A DNA stretch of 22,623 bases from a virus, in the IMG/VR virus record IMGVR_UViG_3300017767_002046, positions 1 through 22,623 of that record. One strand, given 5' to 3'. The notes beneath the pieces were generated by a model. The model worked only from the letters and a program-made list of their open reading frames with translations. It ran no database searches and was not told the DNA's origin. Shown one piece after another: positions 2,610 through 21,567 of this stretch; position 1 is the stretch's first letter, and every line of letters starts with the position of its first letter. Both the position numbers and the translations under genes were made by a program.

Positions 2610-3068
2610 ATGACTGGTACTTTTATGTTCCCTAGGAACGCTTTTTTAGGTTTCGACCATCTTTTTGACGAACTAGAACAAATCACAAATCACGCAAATG
2701 ACTCATATCCACCTCACAATGTAATTAAACATGGTGATACCGAGTATGATATAGAATTAGCGATTGCCGGATTCTCTAAGGACAATATTAATATTGAACT
2801 GAAAGATCACGTATTAACGATTAAAGGTGATAGTGGTAAAGAAAAAGATAAAAAATATGTCCACAGAGGCATATCAGGTCGAAAATTTTTAAAATCGTTC
2901 AGGCTTTCAGAGTACGCAGAAGTCAGTGGTGCTGATCTAACGGACGGGATTCTAACTGTCAAAATAGAAGTAATCCTACCAAAAGAAAAGCGACCCCAGA
3001 AAATTTCAATCGGAACTGGGAGACTAACCAATGGCACAGATGCGCAACTACTTAACGAAACTACTTAG
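2610..3068 (+). CDS. Small heat-shock protein (Hsp20/alpha-crystallin)
   Basis: Hsp20 proteins are ATP-independent holdases that form oligomers and keep unfolding proteins soluble; phage copies are common in marine T4-like phages and may help virion protein folding. The alpha-crystallin domain spans roughly residues 37-135. It includes YDIELAIAGFSKDNINIELKD, the LTIKG strand and the late conserved LTDGILTVKI (A-x-x-x-G-x-L type) motif. The 152-residue length is normal. The start has a strong AGGAGG six bases upstream. The gene overlaps a DUF3563-type mini-gene in another frame by 38 bases. A hairpin in its leader may control expression. Confidence 0.93.
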   Translation: MTGTFMFPRNAFLGFDHLFDELEQITNHANDSYPPHNVIKHGDTEYDIELAIAGFSKDNINIELKDHVLTIKGDSGKEKDKKYVHRGISGRKFLKSFRLSEYAEVSGADLTDGILTVKIEVILPKEKRPQKISIGTGRLTNGTDAQLLNETT

Positions 3069-3201: not shown

Positions 3202-3206
3202 TCTAG

Positions 3207-3245
3207 GGGGCGGGCTTCGGTCCGCTCTTAAGTTTTAATTTTTTT
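3207..3245 (+). terminator. Rho-independent terminator with UUCG tetraloop
   Basis: An eight-base-pair G/C-rich stem (3208-3215 with 3220-3227, two G-U pairs) is capped by the very stable C(UUCG)G tetraloop. It is followed by a T-rich tract ending in seven consecutive T. It is the only strongly GC-rich hairpin in this AT-rich window. It lies directly after the DUF3563-like gene and would end the hsp20 transcript, separating it from the pseudoazurin group. Confidence 0.85.
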
Positions 3246-3258
3246 AAAAGAGGAAAAA

Positions 3259-3519
3259 ATGTCAGTATTAACGTACGGATTAGAAAGAACTTGTCATGTA
3301 TGCGATGCAGTAAATACTTTTGTATATAAATTATATTTAAAGATGGCGTGGCAGAACGAAATAAATCGCAACCTTCGAGTATTTAATGAAATAAAGAATC
3401 TAGACGCAGAGGCTGGATATCATTTACAAAGATTAAATGATAATACAAATGATAAATACAGTAGTCTAATGAGGAACAACAGGCCGTTTAAATGGGCCTG
3501 GGAAGATGATGGAGAATAA
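3259..3519 (+). CDS. Unrecognised 86-aa protein with N-terminal CxxC
   Basis: This small gene of unknown function starts 14 bases after the terminator and has an AGAGG ribosome site. A single CHVC pair lies near residues 12-15, followed by an amphipathic, mostly helical middle (MAWQNEINRNLRVFNEIKN) and a Trp-rich acidic end (KWAWEDDGE). One CxxC is not enough for a zinc ribbon, but could bind metal in a dimer. The C-terminus overlaps the pseudoazurin start by 14 bases, so the two are probably translationally coupled. No promoter is obvious between the terminator and this gene; transcription may be read-through. Confidence 0.6.
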   Translation: MSVLTYGLERTCHVCDAVNTFVYKLYLKMAWQNEINRNLRVFNEIKNLDAEAGYHLQRLNDNTNDKYSSLMRNNRPFKWAWEDDGE

Positions 3520-3970
3520 ACCAAAATGGGAGTATTATATTAATATGGCAATATTTTATGGAATATTTTTAGGATTCATATTAGCAGTAAGTTCTACTTT
3601 TGCCGCAGATATGGATATCGAGATGCTAAATAAAAAAGGTAAAGAAAAGATGGTGTATTCAGTCGATGTAGCTAATATCGATGCAGGAGATACTATCACT
3701 TGGTTACCAGCATCTAAGGGACACAATGTACATTTCATTGCAGGACCAGATGGGTGGGCGTTACCAAAGAAAAGTAAGAACAATCAAGAAGTTGCTATTA
3801 CTTTTGATACACCAGGTGTGTACCTTTACCAGTGTACACCACATGCTTCAATGGGTATGATTGGACTCGTAGTAGTAGGTGAAGATACGAGTAACATTGA
3901 TCTTATCAAAAAAGCTAAGGTCAGAGGAAAGAGTAAGAAAAAATTAAAGAAATTATTAGAAAACATTTAA
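3506..3970 (+). CDS. Pseudoazurin-like blue copper protein, exported
   Basis: Pseudoazurins are small periplasmic type-1 copper proteins that carry single electrons, classically to nitrite or nitrous oxide reductases. After a hydrophobic segment (residues 14-33, ending at a likely cleavage TFA-AD) comes the cupredoxin fold. The four copper ligands are visible: His73 in GHNVHF, Cys110 and His113 in YQCTPHASMGM, and Met118. The MLNKKG start of the mature chain and the lysine-rich tail (residues 134-150) are also pseudoazurin traits. Two adjacent ATGs (3506, 3509) are possible starts, just after GGGAAG. It is followed 15 bases later by a DoxX-like membrane protein. Family call strong; physiological partner unknown. 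Confidence 0.9.
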   Translation: MMENKPKWEYYINMAIFYGIFLGFILAVSSTFAADMDIEMLNKKGKEKMVYSVDVANIDAGDTITWLPASKGHNVHFIAGPDGWALPKKSKNNQEVAITFDTPGVYLYQCTPHASMGMIGLVVVGEDTSNIDLIKKAKVRGKSKKKLKKLLENI

Positions 3971-3985
3971 ACTATAAATTATATC

Positions 3986-4408
3986 ATGAAAATTAAAATA
4001 CCCGAATTTTGTTTATCACAGTGGCTATTACGTCTACCCTTAGCCATTGTGTTTATTCAACAAGGACTCGATAAGATTCCTGTTGATATCGAAACCGCAG
4101 AATCATTTGAGCTTTCCTATATAGTATGGTGGTTCGTAGCTTATGGAGAATTATTAGCTGGAATCGGATTAATAGTAGGCGGTCTAATGATTAAACCTTA
4201 CCTCCCAATATTAGAAAGATGTTATATACCAGATATTGGTGATATGCTAACGCGATTTAGTGGAATCACTATGTGCTGTATAATGACAGGTGTTATATGG
4301 ATCGGCGAACCAGCAAGTTTTATGGACGTTCTTTTATATGATAACCTTCATGTATTCTTATGGGTCGGTGGAACATTCTTTGCTCTACGTGGAAATAGAG
4401 CAAAATAA
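3986..4408 (+). CDS. DoxX-like four-helix membrane protein
   Basis: DoxX/DoxD-type proteins are small integral membrane proteins linked to quinone-dependent redox reactions, such as thiosulfate:quinone oxidoreductase in Acidianus, and to bacterial oxidative-stress complexes. The 140-residue product has about four hydrophobic segments. Family landmarks are RLPLAIVFIQQGLDKI, YGELLAGIGLIVGG, RFSGITMCCIMTGVIW and a final HVFLWVGGTFFALRG. The ATG at 3986 has no good Shine-Dalgarno, so it may depend on coupling to the pseudoazurin 15 bases upstream. Pairing with a periplasmic copper protein suggests electron exchange with the membrane quinone pool, which is inference. Confidence 0.7.
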   Translation: MKIKIPEFCLSQWLLRLPLAIVFIQQGLDKIPVDIETAESFELSYIVWWFVAYGELLAGIGLIVGGLMIKPYLPILERCYIPDIGDMLTRFSGITMCCIMTGVIWIGEPASFMDVLLYDNLHVFLWVGGTFFALRGNRAK

Positions 4409-4411
4409 TAG

Positions 4412-4440
4412 TTTACATTTAAATAAAATTGTGTTATAAT
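4412..4440 (+). promoter_or_regulatory. Strong sigma70-type promoter for DNA polymerase
   Basis: TTTACA (4412-4417), a 17-bp spacer and TATAAT (4435-4440) with an upstream TG making an extended -10. The expected start, seven bases past the -10, is position 4447, the A of the polymerase ATG, so the mRNA would be leaderless. Closely similar promoters lie at 7679, 9381, 12784 and 17255. Confidence 0.85.
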
Positions 4441-4446
4441 TATAGT

Positions 4447-6978
4447 ATGAAATCATTTTATACTTCTGTCAATCGCTATGGCAATTCTATCCTTTATCGT
4501 GGTTATAACGAGAACGGAGCTGCCATAGCTCAGCGATATAAGTTCTCACCTACATTCTATACACCTTCTAAGAAGGAAACTCAGTTCAAAGGATTTGACT
4601 CTGGTTACGTGGCACCAATGACATTTCCAACTATGAGGGATGCTAAAGAATGGTTAGAACAATATCAAGAAATGGATGGAGTTTCTATTTTTGGCTCCAC
4701 CAATTACATACATCAGTTCATCACTGAAACGTTTCCTAAAAAGATCGATTTTGAACCAAATGCTATTAACATAGTCAATTTCGATATCGAGGTTGCATCA
4801 GATGATGGATTTCCTGTTCCTGAACAGGCAGCATATCCAGTTACAGCCATCACAGTAAAATCAAGTAAGTCTTCAGTATATCAAGTCTGGGGATGCGGTG
4901 ATTATACTTCTGCAAAATGTGAAATAGAACTCGACGGTAATTTGATACAATATCATAAATGTAAGAATGAAACTGAACTCCTCGCTAAGTTCTTAGGTTA
5001 CTGGGTTAAGAACTATCCTGACGTAGTTACTGGTTGGAATACTCGTTTCTTTGATATACCTTACATCGTAAACCGTATTAAAAACATTGGTGGTGAGAAA
5101 GCAGCAAACAGATTATCTCCATGGAACTTAGTTAATGATAGAAACATGATGATCGGTGGCAGAATGAACTACAGCTACGACATCAGTGGAATTCAACAAG
5201 CTGATTACTTAGAGTTATTTAGAAAGTTTGGATATTCATATGGTCCACAAGAATCATATCGTCTTGATCATATAGCATATGTAGTTCTTGGTGAACGTAA
5301 ACTTTCTTTTGAAGAACACGGTAGTTTATTAAATCTTTATAAAAATGATTATCAAAAATTTATTGACTACAACATTAAAGATGTACAATTAGTCGATCGT
5401 ATTGACCAAAAGATGGGTCTTATTAATCTAGCGTTTACAATGGCGTATAGAGCTGGAGTTAATTTAACTGATACATTTGGAACTACATCAATATGGGAAT
5501 CAATCATATACCGTAGACTATTTCAAAATAAAATCATTTCACCAGTTCAACAAATTAAAAAGGTTGTATATCAAAATAGATCTAATCCGAATGTGATTGA
5601 GGGTGGTTATGTTAAAGATCCTCAAGTAGGTGCACACGACTGGGTGGTATCGTTTGATCTGAACTCTCTATATCCTAATATTATTGTTCAGTCCAACATA
5701 TCACCCGAAACTTTGATCAGAGATAAATCGTTTGGTGTACACGTTCAAGACGTTGAGTACTATCTAAATAATAAAGAAAAAGTATGTGATGAGCATTCTA
5801 TATGTGCAAGTGGTGTTCCTTTCTCAAAAGGCAAGCAAGGAATCATTCCAGAACTTATTGTCGATTATTATGCCGAGCGTTCTGAAATCAAGAAGAAGAT
5901 GTTAAAAGCTAAATCACTGTATGAAAAAGAAAAATCAAGATCTCTTGAAGCTGAAATCAATCAGCTTGAGAATAATCAAATGGCTATTAAGATCTTGTTG
6001 AACTCTCTTTATGGCGCATTAGCTAATAAGTACTTTAAATATTTTGATAATGCCCTCGCTGAAAGTGTTACACTCACAGGTCAATTATCTATCAAATGGG
6101 CTGAAAAAGCAATCAACGAAGAAATGAATAAGGTTCTTAAGACTAATAATAAAGATTATGTTATCGCGATTGATACCGATTCTTTATACATTAACTTCGG
6201 TCCATTAGTAAAGAAACTCAATCCAAAAGATCCAGTAGCAGCTATCGATAAGTTATGTCAACAACACTTTGAAAAAAAGTTAGCTGAAGCTTATGACAAA
6301 CTCTTTCATAATATGAATGGTCGAGTTTCTCGTATGGAAATGGGTAGAGAAGTTATTGCTGATCGTGGAATCTGGACAGCCAAGAAAAGATATATTCTTA
6401 ATGTGCACAACTCAGAAGGTGTACAATATGCTGAACCTAAACTTAAGATTATGGGTATTGAAGCAATCAAGTCTTCTACACCGGAAGTTGTACGTAATAA
6501 GTTTAAAGAAGCATTTAAGATCATTATATCTGGCAACGAACAAAGGACTAGACAATTCATAAATACTTTTAAACATGAGTTTAAGTCTCTTGATCCAGAA
6601 AAAGTTTCCTTTCCAAGAAGCGTACAGAACGTGGAAAAATGGAAAGATAGAAGGACCATTTATGGAAAAGGTACACCGATCCATGTTCGTGGTGCTCTTC
6701 TTTATAACAATGAAGTAGTCGATAAAGCTCTAGATAAAAAATACTCAAAAATCAACTCAGGCGATAAGATAAAATTCTCATATCTTAAGTTGCCAAATCC
6801 TATTAGAGAAAACATCATATCCTTTCCCGACTATCTACCGAAAGAATTTAATCTTCATAAGTATATTGATTATGACACACAATTCGAAAAGACATTTATA
6901 GAACCACTCAATCCGATTCTTGAAGCAGTTGGTTGGTCTGTAACTGAACAAAACACATTGGAGGATTTCTTTTCATGA
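4447..6978 (+). CDS. 43: DNA polymerase, family B (T4 gp43)
   Basis: This is the replicative polymerase with 3'-5' proofreading. Exonuclease motifs are FDIE at 112-115, NTRFFDIPY near 198-206 and Y-x3-D at 308-312. Polymerase motifs are DLNSLYPNI (motif A, Asp404), KILLNSLYG (motif B, 515-523) and DTDS (motif C, 576-579). All catalytic residues are present and the exo I position nearly equals T4 D112/E114. The length is 843 residues against 898 in T4. I place the start at 4447 (MKSFYT, as in related phages); an upstream non-ATG frame opening at 4429 lies inside the promoter. No Shine-Dalgarno precedes this ATG. The stop overlaps the phosphomannomutase start by ATGA. Confidence 0.97.
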   Translation: MKSFYTSVNRYGNSILYRGYNENGAAIAQRYKFSPTFYTPSKKETQFKGFDSGYVAPMTFPTMRDAKEWLEQYQEMDGVSIFGSTNYIHQFITETFPKKIDFEPNAINIVNFDIEVASDDGFPVPEQAAYPVTAITVKSSKSSVYQVWGCGDYTSAKCEIELDGNLIQYHKCKNETELLAKFLGYWVKNYPDVVTGWNTRFFDIPYIVNRIKNIGGEKAANRLSPWNLVNDRNMMIGGRMNYSYDISGIQQADYLELFRKFGYSYGPQESYRLDHIAYVVLGERKLSFEEHGSLLNLYKNDYQKFIDYNIKDVQLVDRIDQKMGLINLAFTMAYRAGVNLTDTFGTTSIWESIIYRRLFQNKIISPVQQIKKVVYQNRSNPNVIEGGYVKDPQVGAHDWVVSFDLNSLYPNIIVQSNISPETLIRDKSFGVHVQDVEYYLNNKEKVCDEHSICASGVPFSKGKQGIIPELIVDYYAERSEIKKKMLKAKSLYEKEKSRSLEAEINQLENNQMAIKILLNSLYGALANKYFKYFDNALAESVTLTGQLSIKWAEKAINEEMNKVLKTNNKDYVIAIDTDSLYINFGPLVKKLNPKDPVAAIDKLCQQHFEKKLAEAYDKLFHNMNGRVSRMEMGREVIADRGIWTAKKRYILNVHNSEGVQYAEPKLKIMGIEAIKSSTPEVVRNKFKEAFKIIISGNEQRTRQFINTFKHEFKSLDPEKVSFPRSVQNVEKWKDRRTIYGKGTPIHVRGALLYNNEVVDKALDKKYSKINSGDKIKFSYLKLPNPIRENIISFPDYLPKEFNLHKYIDYDTQFEKTFIEPLNPILEAVGWSVTEQNTLEDFFS

Positions 6979-13193: not shown

Positions 13194-14305
13194 TGAAGAT
13201 ATTAGTAACAGGAATGAATAAGAATCAGGTAACTGAAAGTTTTTATTTAAATCAACAATTAAAAGTGGTTCCATCACACTATTCTCTTTTAAGATGTTTA
13301 AGAGGAATGGGACATGAAGTTGAACAAAGATATGTTAAGATCGGAGAAGATTTATCTGATTATGATAGAGTGATTTGTTTTCTTGCTTCACCAAGACAGG
13401 CACTACAACTCGCGTTTTATAATGGTCTTTGGGCAATACACGCTACGCCAAAAGATAGATTAATACTGGCTTTTGATGATTGGCAGACTGAAGGAATATT
13501 CAAAGGAATATTATCTTGTACTGATAAGGATTCTTTACTTAAAGATTTTACTATTAGTCAAAACTCAGTTGACCCTACTATAACAAAATTAAAATTAGAA
13601 CCACACACTGATGTTTTACTCGGAGCTGTTGATTATATCGGATCAAAAGAAGCACCAGTTCTTCTTTCTGTTTTTTCTGGTGGTGATCTCAGTAAGTTGA
13701 TTGATTATCCCGAGCATCTTCTTTTTGGATATAATCCAAATCCTTGTCATAGGAACAGAATACCTGGTGACAGAGAAGATGTTGATAGAGATCAATTACT
13801 TTATTTTGAATTAGAAATGTTACCAACCTTTGAAGAAGACTTTGTTAGCTCTTTAGATAAAGAAAGAAAATTTAACTTTGCATCCTTAGTTCAAGGAAAG
13901 ACTGCAAGATGGTTAAAAAAGCAAAACGTTTCGAACTGGGAAGTAGAATACTTTGGATCTCGAAAAGAAAAACAAAGACGTTTAACTGAACGTGATATGT
14001 GTCAAGTATATGCAGAACAATGGGGTTGCTTAATGCCAGGATATGATCATGCAGGATCTGGTTGGTGGAGAGCTCGTCCATTACAAGTTGCAGATGCAGG
14101 ATCTATATTGATTGGTGAATATGAAGAAATGATGTTATTATATAATGATTCTAAACTTGCTTCTTTAAAAGCTTCAGATATAGAAGATCTAAGTCCACAT
14201 GAGTTACTGTCTCTAGCACAAGCACAAAAATCTGCCATATATAATTCTCATCCACTGGATATTAACGTCCAAGAAAAAGAATTAAAGAAAGCATTAAGAA
14301 TATGA
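13193..14305 (+). CDS. Glycosyltransferase resembling T4 beta-glucosyltransferase (candidate DNA GT)
   Basis: Blocks align by eye with T4 BGT, which glucosylates hydroxymethylcytosine in DNA. DYDRVICF aligns with DYDRLIVV in the N-terminal domain. EYFGSRKEKQ (near 252-261) aligns with EFFGNAREKQ. GWWRARPLQVADAGSILIGE aligns with the LRVWETMASDAVMLIDEE donor-binding region. Gaps and a central insertion (RNRIPGDREDVDRD) differ. The length is about 370 residues against 351 in BGT. Two adjacent ATGs exist; the second (13193) is better spaced from GGAGG. It lies two genes after dCMP deaminase and gp42 and just before UDP-galactopyranose mutase. A GT-B enzyme acting on glycan is the alternative. 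Confidence 0.65.
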   Translation: MKILVTGMNKNQVTESFYLNQQLKVVPSHYSLLRCLRGMGHEVEQRYVKIGEDLSDYDRVICFLASPRQALQLAFYNGLWAIHATPKDRLILAFDDWQTEGIFKGILSCTDKDSLLKDFTISQNSVDPTITKLKLEPHTDVLLGAVDYIGSKEAPVLLSVFSGGDLSKLIDYPEHLLFGYNPNPCHRNRIPGDREDVDRDQLLYFELEMLPTFEEDFVSSLDKERKFNFASLVQGKTARWLKKQNVSNWEVEYFGSRKEKQRRLTERDMCQVYAEQWGCLMPGYDHAGSGWWRARPLQVADAGSILIGEYEEMMLLYNDSKLASLKASDIEDLSPHELLSLAQAQKSAIYNSHPLDINVQEKELKKALRI

Positions 14306-15330
14306 AAACAGTTTTAGTAGTAGGTGCTGGTTTTTCTGGTGTAGCTCTCGCAAGAGAGTTAGTTGAGAATGATCCTGATATATTTGTAGAGATCATTGAA
14401 GAAAGACCACACATCGGCGGTAACGCATATGATTATGAAAACGAAAAAGGAATAAGAGTTCATAAGTACGGTCCTCACTTGTTTCATACTAACAATAAGA
14501 GAGTATGGGACTGGGTCAATCGATTTGGCGAGTGGGTAGAATATAAACATAAAGTTAAAGCTATATTAGAAGATGGAACATACGTAACTCTTCCAGTTAA
14601 TAAAGAAACAAAAGAGATAGTAGGTGAAGAAAACATTATCAAAACTTTCTTTGCTCCTTACACATACAAGATGTGGGGAAAGACTATAGAAGAACTTGAT
14701 CCAAACATAATTAAAAGAGTTCCTATAAGAGATGATGACAATGAGTATTACTTTCCAAACGACGCTTATCAAGGAATGCCGATACTCGGCTATACAGAAC
14801 TCTTCAATGAGATCGTTAATCACGATAGAATAGTAGTACACTTAGGCGTATCATTTAACAAACAAATGGAATCGACATATAATGGATCTTACGCCCATAT
14901 ATTCAACGCTATGCCTATCGATGAATATTTTAATTATAAGCACGGCGAGTTACCTTATAGATCAATAAAATTTAATCACGTCGACTTACCTACGCCATAT
15001 ATACTTCCTACAACAACTGTAAACTTTACTCATGACGGTCCTTGTACAAGAGTTACAGAATGGAAGCGTATTCCTTTTCATGGAGATAATCCAAACTGGA
15101 CATCTTTGACATATGAAACACCATGCGACTACAGAGATAATAATATGGAAAGATATTATCCAGTTAAAGATGTTGAAGGTGTTAATCGAAAGACTTACGA
15201 AGAATATAAAAAAATGGTTGGACCAAAAATGACGTTTATAGGAAGATGTGGAATGTACGCTTATTTGGATATGCATCAGGCTATCAACTCAGCTCTACAA
15301 ACAGCAACAAAATACTTGGAGGACAAATGA
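14302..15330 (+). CDS. glf: UDP-galactopyranose mutase (Glf family)
   Basis: Glf interconverts UDP-galactopyranose and UDP-galactofuranose with reduced FAD. The FAD-binding GAGFSGV lies at residues 8-14. Further landmarks are EERPHIGGNAYDYE, the substrate motif YGPHLFHTNNKRVWDWVN, FFAPYTYKMWG, and GPKMTFIGRCGMYAYLDMHQ near the C-terminus. At 342 residues it is slightly shorter than the usual 370-390 but looks complete. It is linked by ATGA to the glycosyltransferase upstream and by ATGA to the epimerase downstream. Related mutases also act on UDP-arabinopyranose, so galactose is not certain. The context suggests a furanose donor for the adjacent glycosyltransferase. Confidence 0.93.
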   Translation: MKTVLVVGAGFSGVALARELVENDPDIFVEIIEERPHIGGNAYDYENEKGIRVHKYGPHLFHTNNKRVWDWVNRFGEWVEYKHKVKAILEDGTYVTLPVNKETKEIVGEENIIKTFFAPYTYKMWGKTIEELDPNIIKRVPIRDDDNEYYFPNDAYQGMPILGYTELFNEIVNHDRIVVHLGVSFNKQMESTYNGSYAHIFNAMPIDEYFNYKHGELPYRSIKFNHVDLPTPYILPTTTVNFTHDGPCTRVTEWKRIPFHGDNPNWTSLTYETPCDYRDNNMERYYPVKDVEGVNRKTYEEYKKMVGPKMTFIGRCGMYAYLDMHQAINSALQTATKYLEDK

Positions 15331-16070
15331 AAGTAATCGTTACAGGATCAGAAGGATTCATTGGAAAACATTTATGCGAAAGACTAGAAAAAGAAGGTCA
15401 TACAGTAGTAGGATTAGATCGAAACAGTGGGCAAGAAGCTTTATACTTTGAAGTTGGAGATGCCGAATTTGCAATTCATTTAGCAGCATGGGCAGATGTA
15501 AGGGCATCAATAAATGATCCAAAAGGATATTGGGAAAATAATGTTGTAACTACAACAATAATTCAAAAAGCATGTGCTGATAATAATATTCCTCTTTTAT
15601 ACGCATCTTCATCTTGTATACATGACTGGCATCTGTCACCTTACGGTATGAGTAAGAAAGTAAACGAAGAAACAGCAAAGGAAAACCAATGTGGTTTAAG
15701 ATTTACTACCGTATTTGGTGAAGGCGCAAGAGACACAATGTTAATAGGCCGGTTAGTTAATAACACAGCTAAATATGCCACGAACCATATTAGAGATTTT
15801 GTACATGTTGATGACGTAGTAGATGTAATGTTATTATTAATGAGTAAAGATCCGAGTACTTGGGATCCTGCTTACGATGTTGGAACAGGTCTAGGATATG
15901 AAGTATCTTATCTAGCAAATGAGATATGTGGATATGATTTACCAGTACAACAAGGTGACGAGTGCGAAGCTCAAGACAATACAGCAAACATAAATCGATT
16001 AAACGTAGCTGGTTGGTCTAAAGCTAAGATTGACGTAACGAAATATCTAAAAGAAAAAATTGGAAAATGA
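15327..16070 (+). CDS. NAD-dependent epimerase/dehydratase (GalE-like, short)
   Basis: Extended-SDR sugar nucleotide enzyme. It has the Rossmann GSEGFIGKHL at residues 7-16, HLAAWADVRAS, the catalytic SSS near 94-97 and YGMSKK (Y-x3-K). A RDFVHVDDVVDVM segment follows. The start is the ATG at 15327 with GGAGG six bases before it; an upstream open frame is only overlap with glf. At 247 residues it is well below GalE (about 340) or UDP-xylose synthase (about 310), with a reduced C-terminal substrate domain. A 4-epimerase making UDP-galactose for the adjacent mutase is the simplest reading; UDP-glucuronate decarboxylase or another epimerase cannot be excluded. Confidence 0.85.
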   Translation: MKVIVTGSEGFIGKHLCERLEKEGHTVVGLDRNSGQEALYFEVGDAEFAIHLAAWADVRASINDPKGYWENNVVTTTIIQKACADNNIPLLYASSSCIHDWHLSPYGMSKKVNEETAKENQCGLRFTTVFGEGARDTMLIGRLVNNTAKYATNHIRDFVHVDDVVDVMLLLMSKDPSTWDPAYDVGTGLGYEVSYLANEICGYDLPVQQGDECEAQDNTANINRLNVAGWSKAKIDVTKYLKEKIGK

Positions 16071-17254
16071 CCCATGCATCAATAATCCCTCTTATTGGAG
16101 GAGAAACCATAGCCATGCAAAATGTCTTTGGAGAAAAACCAGAGTACATTCTGTCTTATACGGATTTCGAAGCAAATGATAACCAACTTGTTGAGTACTA
16201 TAATAGGACTGTGCCTTATATTAAGCTTGATATGGGTGGTAGTGTACCTCGTAGTGTGGATGTTGTCAATACTGTTTGCCCTTGTGCTGGTTTGTCTTCG
16301 CTTTCTTTTACCAGTGGTAGCGATAATCCTGCTAATGATTGGATGCTTCGTGCTGCTCGATACGTGCTCGAGAATGTTCAACCTCAAGTCTTCTGGGGTG
16401 AAAACGCACCTAGACTCGCAAGTAAGATGGGAGAACCTATCGTAAAAGAAATGAGAAAGATGGCCAAAGAGTTTGGTTATACTGTAAGTCTATATAAAAC
16501 TAAATCAATACTACATGGGTTAAGTCAAGTTAGAGACAGGGCTTTTTATTTCTTTTGGAAAGGTAATGAGGTTCCTATCTTTGATTACTACGACAGACCC
16601 CATGAAAAGATCGAAGATACTATAAGAGGAGCTGCTACTAATGAACCAGATCCTATGACTGAATTAATGACTAACAACGATGTTCCTTCAGAGAATCCTT
16701 TTTATAAGTATGTATTAGAGGAAATGGAAGGTGGCATAAGTCATACAGAATTCTTTAATAAGATTGAAAGATCTGCCAATCCTTTACATTGGATCGAAGA
16801 TCATGGTAGTAATTACTATGAGCTTTCTGAATGGTGTAAAAAGAATGGTTATGACAGTCAATCTAAAAAAGCAAAAAGAATGGCCGATAAAGTTAAATCT
16901 GGTGGCAACGTTATGAGAAGAACTGTTGAAGTAGGAAAAGATCGTATAGGGGCATTTGTCGGTCACCTACCGAATAGTTTAACTCATCCAGATGTTGATA
17001 GATTTTTAAACGTAAGAGAGTGTTTAGAAATTATGAAACTACCAAAAGATTTCCAACTACAAGGTGGAATTAAGAACCTAAATCATATATGCCAAAACGT
17101 ACCAGTTACGACTGCTATGGATATGGCAAAAAACGTAAAGAAATTCTTAGGAGGAAAAAGTAAACTTGTTAAATCAGATTTCTCAGTACAATGTAATAAG
17201 ACAAGAAACTTCTGGTCTGAACCAGAACCATCAACATTGGAATCATTTTTTTAG
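16067..17254 (+). CDS. C5-cytosine DNA methyltransferase-like protein
   Basis: The motif order fits C5-cytosine methyltransferases. A divergent AdoMet motif I is seen as PLIGGETIAM, with motif II around SYTDFEAND. Motif IV is CPCAGLSSLS with the catalytic Cys73, in place of GPPCQGFS. Motif VI is GENAPRL (111-117), motif VIII is GLSQVRDRAFYF, motif IX is RFLNVRECLEIMKLPKDF and motif X is NVPVTTAMDMA. The 395 residues are typical and the recognition region (about 170-320) is large. It ends the hydroxymethylase/sugar run and starts in an ATGA overlap with the epimerase. A normal methyltransferase could not methylate hydroxymethylcytosine, so its substrate here is an open question. Confidence 0.8.
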   Translation: MTHASIIPLIGGETIAMQNVFGEKPEYILSYTDFEANDNQLVEYYNRTVPYIKLDMGGSVPRSVDVVNTVCPCAGLSSLSFTSGSDNPANDWMLRAARYVLENVQPQVFWGENAPRLASKMGEPIVKEMRKMAKEFGYTVSLYKTKSILHGLSQVRDRAFYFFWKGNEVPIFDYYDRPHEKIEDTIRGAATNEPDPMTELMTNNDVPSENPFYKYVLEEMEGGISHTEFFNKIERSANPLHWIEDHGSNYYELSEWCKKNGYDSQSKKAKRMADKVKSGGNVMRRTVEVGKDRIGAFVGHLPNSLTHPDVDRFLNVRECLEIMKLPKDFQLQGGIKNLNHICQNVPVTTAMDMAKNVKKFLGGKSKLVKSDFSVQCNKTRNFWSEPEPSTLESFF

Positions 17255-20440: not shown

Positions 20441-20647
20441 ATGCCTGGACAAAATTTTATAAACGGTCCGCCTAATCCACGTGGAGTAGAAAGAACCACA
20501 CTAGATGGCAAAATTCGGATAGAAGATCAGTCTGAATCTCTAATACTAAAAGTCACTGGATTAAAGTTTTTAATAGAAAATCCTAAAGCACCGTTTGTAT
20601 GGTTTGCAATAGGCATAAGTTTAATTTTTTACATAGAAGGATTTTGA
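20441..20647 (+). CDS. Small C-tail membrane protein, 68 aa
   Basis: An AAGGA ribosome site precedes the ATG. The product has a Gly/Pro-rich start (MPGQNFINGPPNPRG), a charged middle and a hydrophobic C-terminal helix (FVWFAIGISLIFYIEGF). It shares the tail-anchored layout of the gene before it but no sequence. Function unknown. Confidence 0.6.
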   Translation: MPGQNFINGPPNPRGVERTTLDGKIRIEDQSESLILKVTGLKFLIENPKAPFVWFAIGISLIFYIEGF

Positions 20648-20911
20648 ATGTTGACCGATGATCAATTTAAAGAAGTATATAACCGACTCATGGCAACTGT
20701 AAATGATATTCTAGAAGAATTCGAAGATGATGATGAGAACATTCATTTAGTTACTGCAGGTGTACTGACTACAATGGGACTAAGTATGTATAAAACAGTC
20801 ATGTCAGAAAAAGATTTTGAAAAGATGGTTACCATGATGCATGACATGAAAGATGAAATAAAGACTATGGAACCATCTGAAGATACAATGGATTCGGAGA
20901 CATTCCATTGA
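20648..20911 (+). CDS. Acidic 87-aa protein
   Basis: Begins immediately after the previous stop, with AAGGA seven bases upstream. The protein is strongly acidic (LEEFEDDDENIH), helical and Met-rich, with no Cys and no membrane segment. Its stop overlaps the ThyX TTG start (TTGA). Function unknown. Confidence 0.62.
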   Translation: MLTDDQFKEVYNRLMATVNDILEEFEDDDENIHLVTAGVLTTMGLSMYKTVMSEKDFEKMVTMMHDMKDEIKTMEPSEDTMDSETFH

Positions 20912-21567
20912 GAGTTAATATAGTAGGATACACACAACCAAACGAGGAGTTTGAATATGATTTTGCCGATACACAAGACTTCATCGCCTTCTGTGCTCGT
21001 GTCTCAAACCCGGCGAACCAAAATAACAAGGAGACAGCTGATAAGCTTATCAAATACCTCATCAAAAACAAACATTGGTCTCCCTTTGAAATGGCCTCCG
21101 CTACCCTCGAGGTTGAAACGACAAGAGATATCGCGAGACAACTGCTCCGTCATAGAAGCTTTAGCTTTCAAGAGTTTAGTCAGCGTTATGCTGATCCTAA
21201 TAGTCTCGGTGATATTTTCGTAACAAGAGAAGCTAGACTTCAAGACGATAAAAACAGACAAAATAGTATTGATATAGAAGATCCAGCATTAGAAGGCAAG
21301 TGGATTTCATTACAAAAAAGAGTCTGGGAAGAAGCTATGATTGCTTATAACTTTGCCATTAAGAGTGGCATTGCAAAAGAACAGGCGAGATGCGTTCTTC
21401 CTGAAGGGAATACTCTTTCAAGATTATATGTGAATGGAACAATACGTTCTTGGATTCATTATATCGAATTAAGAACTTCTAATGGTACTCAAAAAGAACA
21501 TATTGAAGTGGCCAAAGCATGTGCTGAAGTTATATCTAAAATCTTTCCAATAATAGATAAAGTGTAA
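20908..21567 (+). CDS. thyX: Flavin-dependent thymidylate synthase ThyX
   Basis: ThyX makes dTMP from dUMP using FAD, NADPH and methylenetetrahydrofolate. The family signature RHR-x7-S is present at residues 81-91, followed by QRY. The C-terminal block LSRLYVNGTIRSWIHYIELR matches the substrate-binding region. The start is a TTG overlapping the previous stop, with CGGAGA about seven bases upstream; the first in-frame ATG would remove a third of the protein. The length (219 residues) is normal. With dCMP deaminase it gives the phage its own dTMP supply, while the ThyA-fold enzyme in this window is a hydroxymethylase. Confidence 0.95.
   Translation: MRVNIVGYTQPNEEFEYDFADTQDFIAFCARVSNPANQNNKETADKLIKYLIKNKHWSPFEMASATLEVETTRDIARQLLRHRSFSFQEFSQRYADPNSLGDIFVTREARLQDDKNRQNSIDIEDPALEGKWISLQKRVWEEAMIAYNFAIKSGIAKEQARCVLPEGNTLSRLYVNGTIRSWIHYIELRTSNGTQKEHIEVAKACAEVISKIFPIIDKV

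Follow-up and report, generated by a model that had tools for sequence, protein, structure and literature searches.

Pseudoazurin and DoxX gene pairs in marine T4-like viruses and their probable link to host aerobic respiration

The hsp20-gp43 slot and its genes

The window, i.e. the whole stretch of 22,623 nucleotides that was analysed, is a 22.6-kb viral fragment with T4-like replication genes coding for a clamp loader, RegA, the DNA polymerase gp43, UvsX and gp41. Between hsp20 and gp43, it carries a small open reading frame, orf3259, followed by the genes for a pseudoazurin precursor and a DoxX-family membrane protein (Table 1). The stop codon of the pseudoazurin gene ends at position 3970 and the next ATG lies at 3986, which leaves a gap of 15 bases, as given in a preliminary description of the locus. 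Relatives of orf3259 are found upstream of pseudoazurin in many viral loci. Since a terminator-like hairpin precedes orf3259 and a strong promoter-like site precedes the polymerase gene, the three genes may form a single transcription unit. Terminator-like hairpins are more frequent in the region than expected (3 vs 0.9), promoter-like sites across the region are overall at chance level, and the T4 late-promoter motif occurs once in the window, which is below the chance expectation.

Table 1. Coordinates of features in the window
Feature	Position	Strand	Remarks
hsp20	2610..3068	+	left landmark; in many related phages the slot holds DoxX and/or a carrier
Terminator-like hairpin	3206..3229	+	precedes orf3259
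Small ORF, 86 aa (orf3259)	3259..3519	+	last 14 nt shared with the start of the pseudoazurin gene
Pseudoazurin precursor, 154 aa	3506..3970	+	signal-like N-terminus; type-1 copper ligands H73, C110, H113, M118
DoxX-family membrane protein, 140 aa	3986..4408	+	four main helices; PF07681
Promoter-like site, TTTACA-17-TATAAT	4412..4440	+	precedes the polymerase gene; strong
T4-like DNA polymerase gp43	4447..6978	+	right landmark of the slot
Large ORF	14302-15330		UDP-galactopyranose mutase-like by eye
Large ORF	16067-17254		DNA cytosine methyltransferase-like by eye
Small membrane protein, c40 family	20441..20647	+	c40 sits within the extended module in other phages
Large ORF	20908-21567		ThyX-like by eye

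The pseudoazurin matches PF00127 with 61.1 bits (cut-off 21.2) and the pseudoazurin model TIGR02375 with 105.9 bits over positions 1-115 of 116, which is 4 bits under the NCBI cut-off of 109.85; the competing models for amicyanin, halocyanin and plastocyanin reach 38.9-48.7 bits on the same protein. A TIGR02375 E-value near the cut-off is attained by about 9 of 43 viral relatives, and in a profile search, pseudoazurins outscored other cupredoxins by about 50 bits. When aligned to 3tu6, His73, Cys110, His113 and Met118 are all in place with pseudoazurin spacing, and the N-terminus, ending in ...SSTFA|AD, looks like a signal peptide by eye, as do those of the relatives. The protein thus shares a full-length fold match, the four type-1 ligands and a putative export signal with known pseudoazurins (3tu6, 1bqk, 1paz), and differs from them in that it is encoded by a virus, scores just below the cut-off and belongs to a set of sequences that fall mostly into viral branches. 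That the gene is intact and codes for a pseudoazurin-type blue copper protein, putatively exported, was confirmed at the level of the sequence.

The second gene product matches PF07681 with 33.7 bits (cut-off 23.6), as do 37 of 39 viral DoxX members, and its predicted structure consists of four main helices (pLDDT 88.6). To our knowledge, DoxX has no settled biochemical function. Foldseek returned no match for the model at E <= 0.001, and a second structure aligner gave middling Z-scores, the best of which was for NACHO (TMEM35A; Z 9.7), a value usual for helical bundles. Assigning a function from fold comparison was dropped, as no convincing enzyme match was obtained.

Neither protein has a match among 50,697 deposited phage records; in IMG/VR, by comparison, viral pseudoazurins were found at 79 loci and viral DoxX in 451 stretches. 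The copper ligands, which the preliminary description had reported as intact in the window, are invariant in the aligned viral relatives wherever they are covered: H73 in 78 sequences (two truncated sequences do not reach it) and C110, H113 and M118 in 80. The mean column identity of DoxX is 69% across 39 diverse members. Both genes are under purifying selection, with dN/dS values of about 0.04-0.19 for pseudoazurin and about 0.05-0.21 for DoxX where dS could be estimated and exceeded 0.1, many dS values being near saturation. The invariant ligands at 79 viral loci, the 451 DoxX stretches and the low dN/dS argue that the two genes are no chance open reading frames.

Recurrence of the pair and its neighbours in viral relatives

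It had been proposed that the same pair be sought in marine viral contigs and that its absence from related phages, with disrupted copies elsewhere, would speak against a functional unit; instead, the pair recurs. A DoxX gene is found no more than 3 kb away from 23 of the 68 distinct viral pseudoazurins, and pseudoazurin within 3 kb of 21 of the 60 distinct viral DoxX genes, fractions that are not population frequencies, because the loci were retrieved by searching for one of the two genes. The two thirds of distinct viral pseudoazurins that have no DoxX within 3 kb are explained in part by contig ends. The order varies between pseudoazurin-DoxX and DoxX-pseudoazurin, with or without a COX4-like gene in between. 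The T4 capsid protein gp23 is encoded in 8 of 22 long records, and the module therefore resides in real T4-like phages. No DoxX was found beside 79 cellular pseudoazurins; the single apparent exception, L166, was rejected because its ORFs point to a phage contig that had been assigned to a Muricauda genome in binning. We found no earlier report of a phage pseudoazurin-DoxX pair in the open-access literature.

In other phages, a class-I cytochrome c (PF00034, 40 bits) takes the place of pseudoazurin beside DoxX, and it lies within 3 kb of 6 of the 60 distinct DoxX genes. No locus has both carriers beside DoxX, as compared with about two such cases expected among the 60 distinct DoxX loci (estimated p about 0.065), and none of 24 long records combines pseudoazurin with a firmly matched cytochrome c, the match in G037 being weak; a swap between the two carriers is therefore suggestive only. 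A further neighbour of DoxX is a small COX4-like protein (c2 family, COX4_pro_2-like), which lies within 3 kb of 31 of the 60 distinct DoxX genes; conversely, DoxX is near 38 of 43 COX4-like proteins. PF07835 is matched by 8 of 25 c2 members, and the c2 profile gave just five matches to solved structures in the PDB (E <= 5), all of them weak and all of them to subunit IV of aa3-type oxidases. The c2 protein thus resembles the fourth subunit of bacterial aa3 oxidases.

Oxidase and cytochrome b genes in other phages

The window itself, a 22.6-kb fragment, contains no oxidase subunit gene; in a 134-kb phage record, COX2, CtaG/Cox11, COX1, a gene termed c4, a COX4-like gene and DoxX follow each other in a row, and pseudoazurin lies about 0.9 kb further on. 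The same genes up to DoxX, at which the fetched stretch breaks off, recur in an assembly from a different metagenome, with 97.2% identity over 9.9 kb. The COX1 protein matches that of the Paracoccus aa3 oxidase over its full length with 1028 bits, the CuA motif is kept in the phage COX2, and the metal ligands of COX1 and COX2 are present in L365 and L369. Genes of aa3-type oxidases on viral contigs (L365:13989-16889; L369; L370; L371; L372; L373) comprise COX1, in some cases together with COX2 and CtaG. Only six viral loci have COX1, which is linked to the pseudoazurin-DoxX pair in one lineage only; the COX1 proteins of the other viral contigs show 52-59% identity. The COX1-bearing records are recognised as phage by other genes, since neither gp23 nor the single terminase model applied gave a hit in them; in the 134-kb record, these genes code for a clamp loader, PhoH, tail proteins, an exonuclease and a head protease. 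Matches to COX1 and cytochrome b in deposited phage records were discarded, as by appearance they were mostly host contamination or fragments. One COX1-bearing phage record also carries a heme oxygenase gene (L366:10001-10531), and an ORF in another is heme oxygenase-like by eye (L371:13722-14270).

The c4 protein is a conserved small membrane protein with an invariant His and a GEH C-terminus (L365:16968-17393, L213:5478-5771, L214:5130-5411); its AlphaFold model is poor (pLDDT 68). It is encoded near pseudoazurin in phages and also in SAR116 genomes, which fits an exchange with such hosts, and it has distant relatives in SAR11.

Furthermore, a full-length bc1 cytochrome b gene begins 1 nt downstream of pseudoazurin in a further viral locus (L034:6410-7615), and full-length cytochrome b of this kind is encoded at 76 marine viral loci (L034, L396-L470). 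No Rieske or cytochrome c1-type motifs were detected near the viral cytochrome b in the stretches scanned.

Host and possible role of the module

Cellular relatives of the pseudoazurin come almost exclusively from marine alphaproteobacteria, including SAR11, SAR116, OCS116 and Rhodobacteraceae. In the pseudoazurin tree, the virus and cell labels require 6 changes as compared with 41 in shuffles; viral forms stand mostly in viral branches, and the pseudoazurin of the window is placed, with weak support, in an all-viral group of 27. None of the host pseudoazurins examined in detail adjoins oxidase genes. The phage DoxX group likewise stands apart from most host DoxX proteins (about 190-250 vs about 40-54 bits), and close single-copy DoxX genes are present in three marine alphaproteobacterial genomes. 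One related phage, the 134-kb record, contains a permuted alphaproteobacterial tmRNA (L365:10189-10552; Rfam RF01849, 125 bits). Because of this tmRNA and the marine alphaproteobacterial relatives, a heterotrophic host, as suggested in the preliminary description, is likely, and the phage of the window itself would presumably infect an alphaproteobacterium.

The alternation of cytochrome c with pseudoazurin, the nearby COX4-like gene and the linkage to COX and cytochrome b genes tie the pair to respiration. Quite probably, it belongs to a phage-encoded respiratory module that acts between complex III and the aa3-type oxidase of an alphaproteobacterial host. The pseudoazurin would be exported and loaded with copper in the periplasm, where the host cytochrome bc1 complex, or a donor like it, would reduce it; it would then pass the electrons on to the aa3-type terminal cytochrome c oxidase, thereby allowing oxygen respiration and ATP supply to go on at a time when the host no longer renews its own respiratory proteins. 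DoxX, whose role is suggested by gene association, would be the module's membrane component and would most likely be bound to the oxidase or support it, or else link the quinone pool to the carrier by electron transfer. On balance, we also think that marine T4-like phages of heterotrophic alphaproteobacteria possess a mix-and-match aerobic respiratory kit made up of bc1 cytochrome b, pseudoazurin or cytochrome c, DoxX and parts of the aa3 oxidase, of which the window would represent one member. The earlier suggestion of an electron-transfer module with DoxX and a link to a terminal oxidase is thus supported, whereas nothing in the data spoke for the nitrogen and sulfur roles that it had also considered: NirK was found in 0 of 29 related viral records, a set that does not include the window, and the result for sulfur oxidation is given below.

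The genes of cyanophages for photosynthetic electron transport are well known, but the energy supply for phages of heterotrophic marine bacteria is largely not. Cyanophage plastocyanin (petE), PTOX, ferredoxin and psbA are alike in that T4-like phages carry a soluble copper carrier or parts of an electron chain, presumably for energy upkeep; however, they serve photosynthesis, whereas the present set, which additionally includes DoxX, cytochrome c, oxidase and bc1 parts, fits the aerobic respiration of non-photosynthetic alphaproteobacteria. If it exists as proposed, the kit is the respiratory counterpart to the photosynthesis genes of cyanophages, and if the module works in this way, viruses directly influence how abundant ocean bacteria respire and use oxygen, and how much copper and iron they need. 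In viromes of the Indian Ocean, viral reads of cbb3-type cytochrome c oxidase were described in 2012, and marine viruses may carry its subunit I (PMC3474794). That observation was made at the level of reads, whereas here aa3-type COX1, COX2 and CtaG lie on assembled phage contigs together with a carrier and DoxX. The authors of a study on nitrogen genes in viruses noted that they saw no cytochromes or other electron carriers in their phages (PMC8115048).

The module could instead serve to save iron or to handle copper, with pseudoazurin replacing the heme protein cytochrome c under iron scarcity or storing copper and DoxX acting as a membrane chaperone. The alternation of the two carriers beside DoxX, the copper-delivery factor CtaG/Cox11 within the oxidase string and the likeness of the DoxX model to the assembly factor NACHO, although within the range of helical bundles, are compatible with this idea; however, a carrier swap already implies a role in electron transfer, and copper storage would not need an intact type-1 site, which makes this explanation unlikely.

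A sulfur module, in which DoxX would take the part that DoxD has in thiosulfate:quinone oxidoreductase, or would serve some other thiol oxidation, and pseudoazurin would remove the electrons, is improbable. DoxX and DoxD belong to one Pfam clan, DoxD is a subunit of the thiosulfate:quinone oxidoreductase of Acidianus, and glutaredoxin genes lie near some phage DoxX genes. However, the partner genes are respiratory, and no sulfur-oxidation family is among the 25 Pfam families listed for 76 neighbour clusters (19 further families being unlisted, and DoxA and rhodanese lying outside the search). DoxA (PF07680), the partner of DoxD in the DoxDA enzyme, is not among these 25 either.

Equally improbable is that the genes are independent cargo without a joint function, which merely happen to insert at the same hotspot between hsp20 and gp43: this interval is indeed variable, and in phage C48C1, whose polymerase is the closest sequenced relative (54% identity), it holds other genes and neither DoxX nor pseudoazurin, but the pair is also found outside the slot, in either order and, in a number of loci, with the stop codon of one gene overlapping the start codon of the next. 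In records of 59-230 kb with both genes, the two mostly lie within about 2 kb of each other, the exceptions being G028 and G029.
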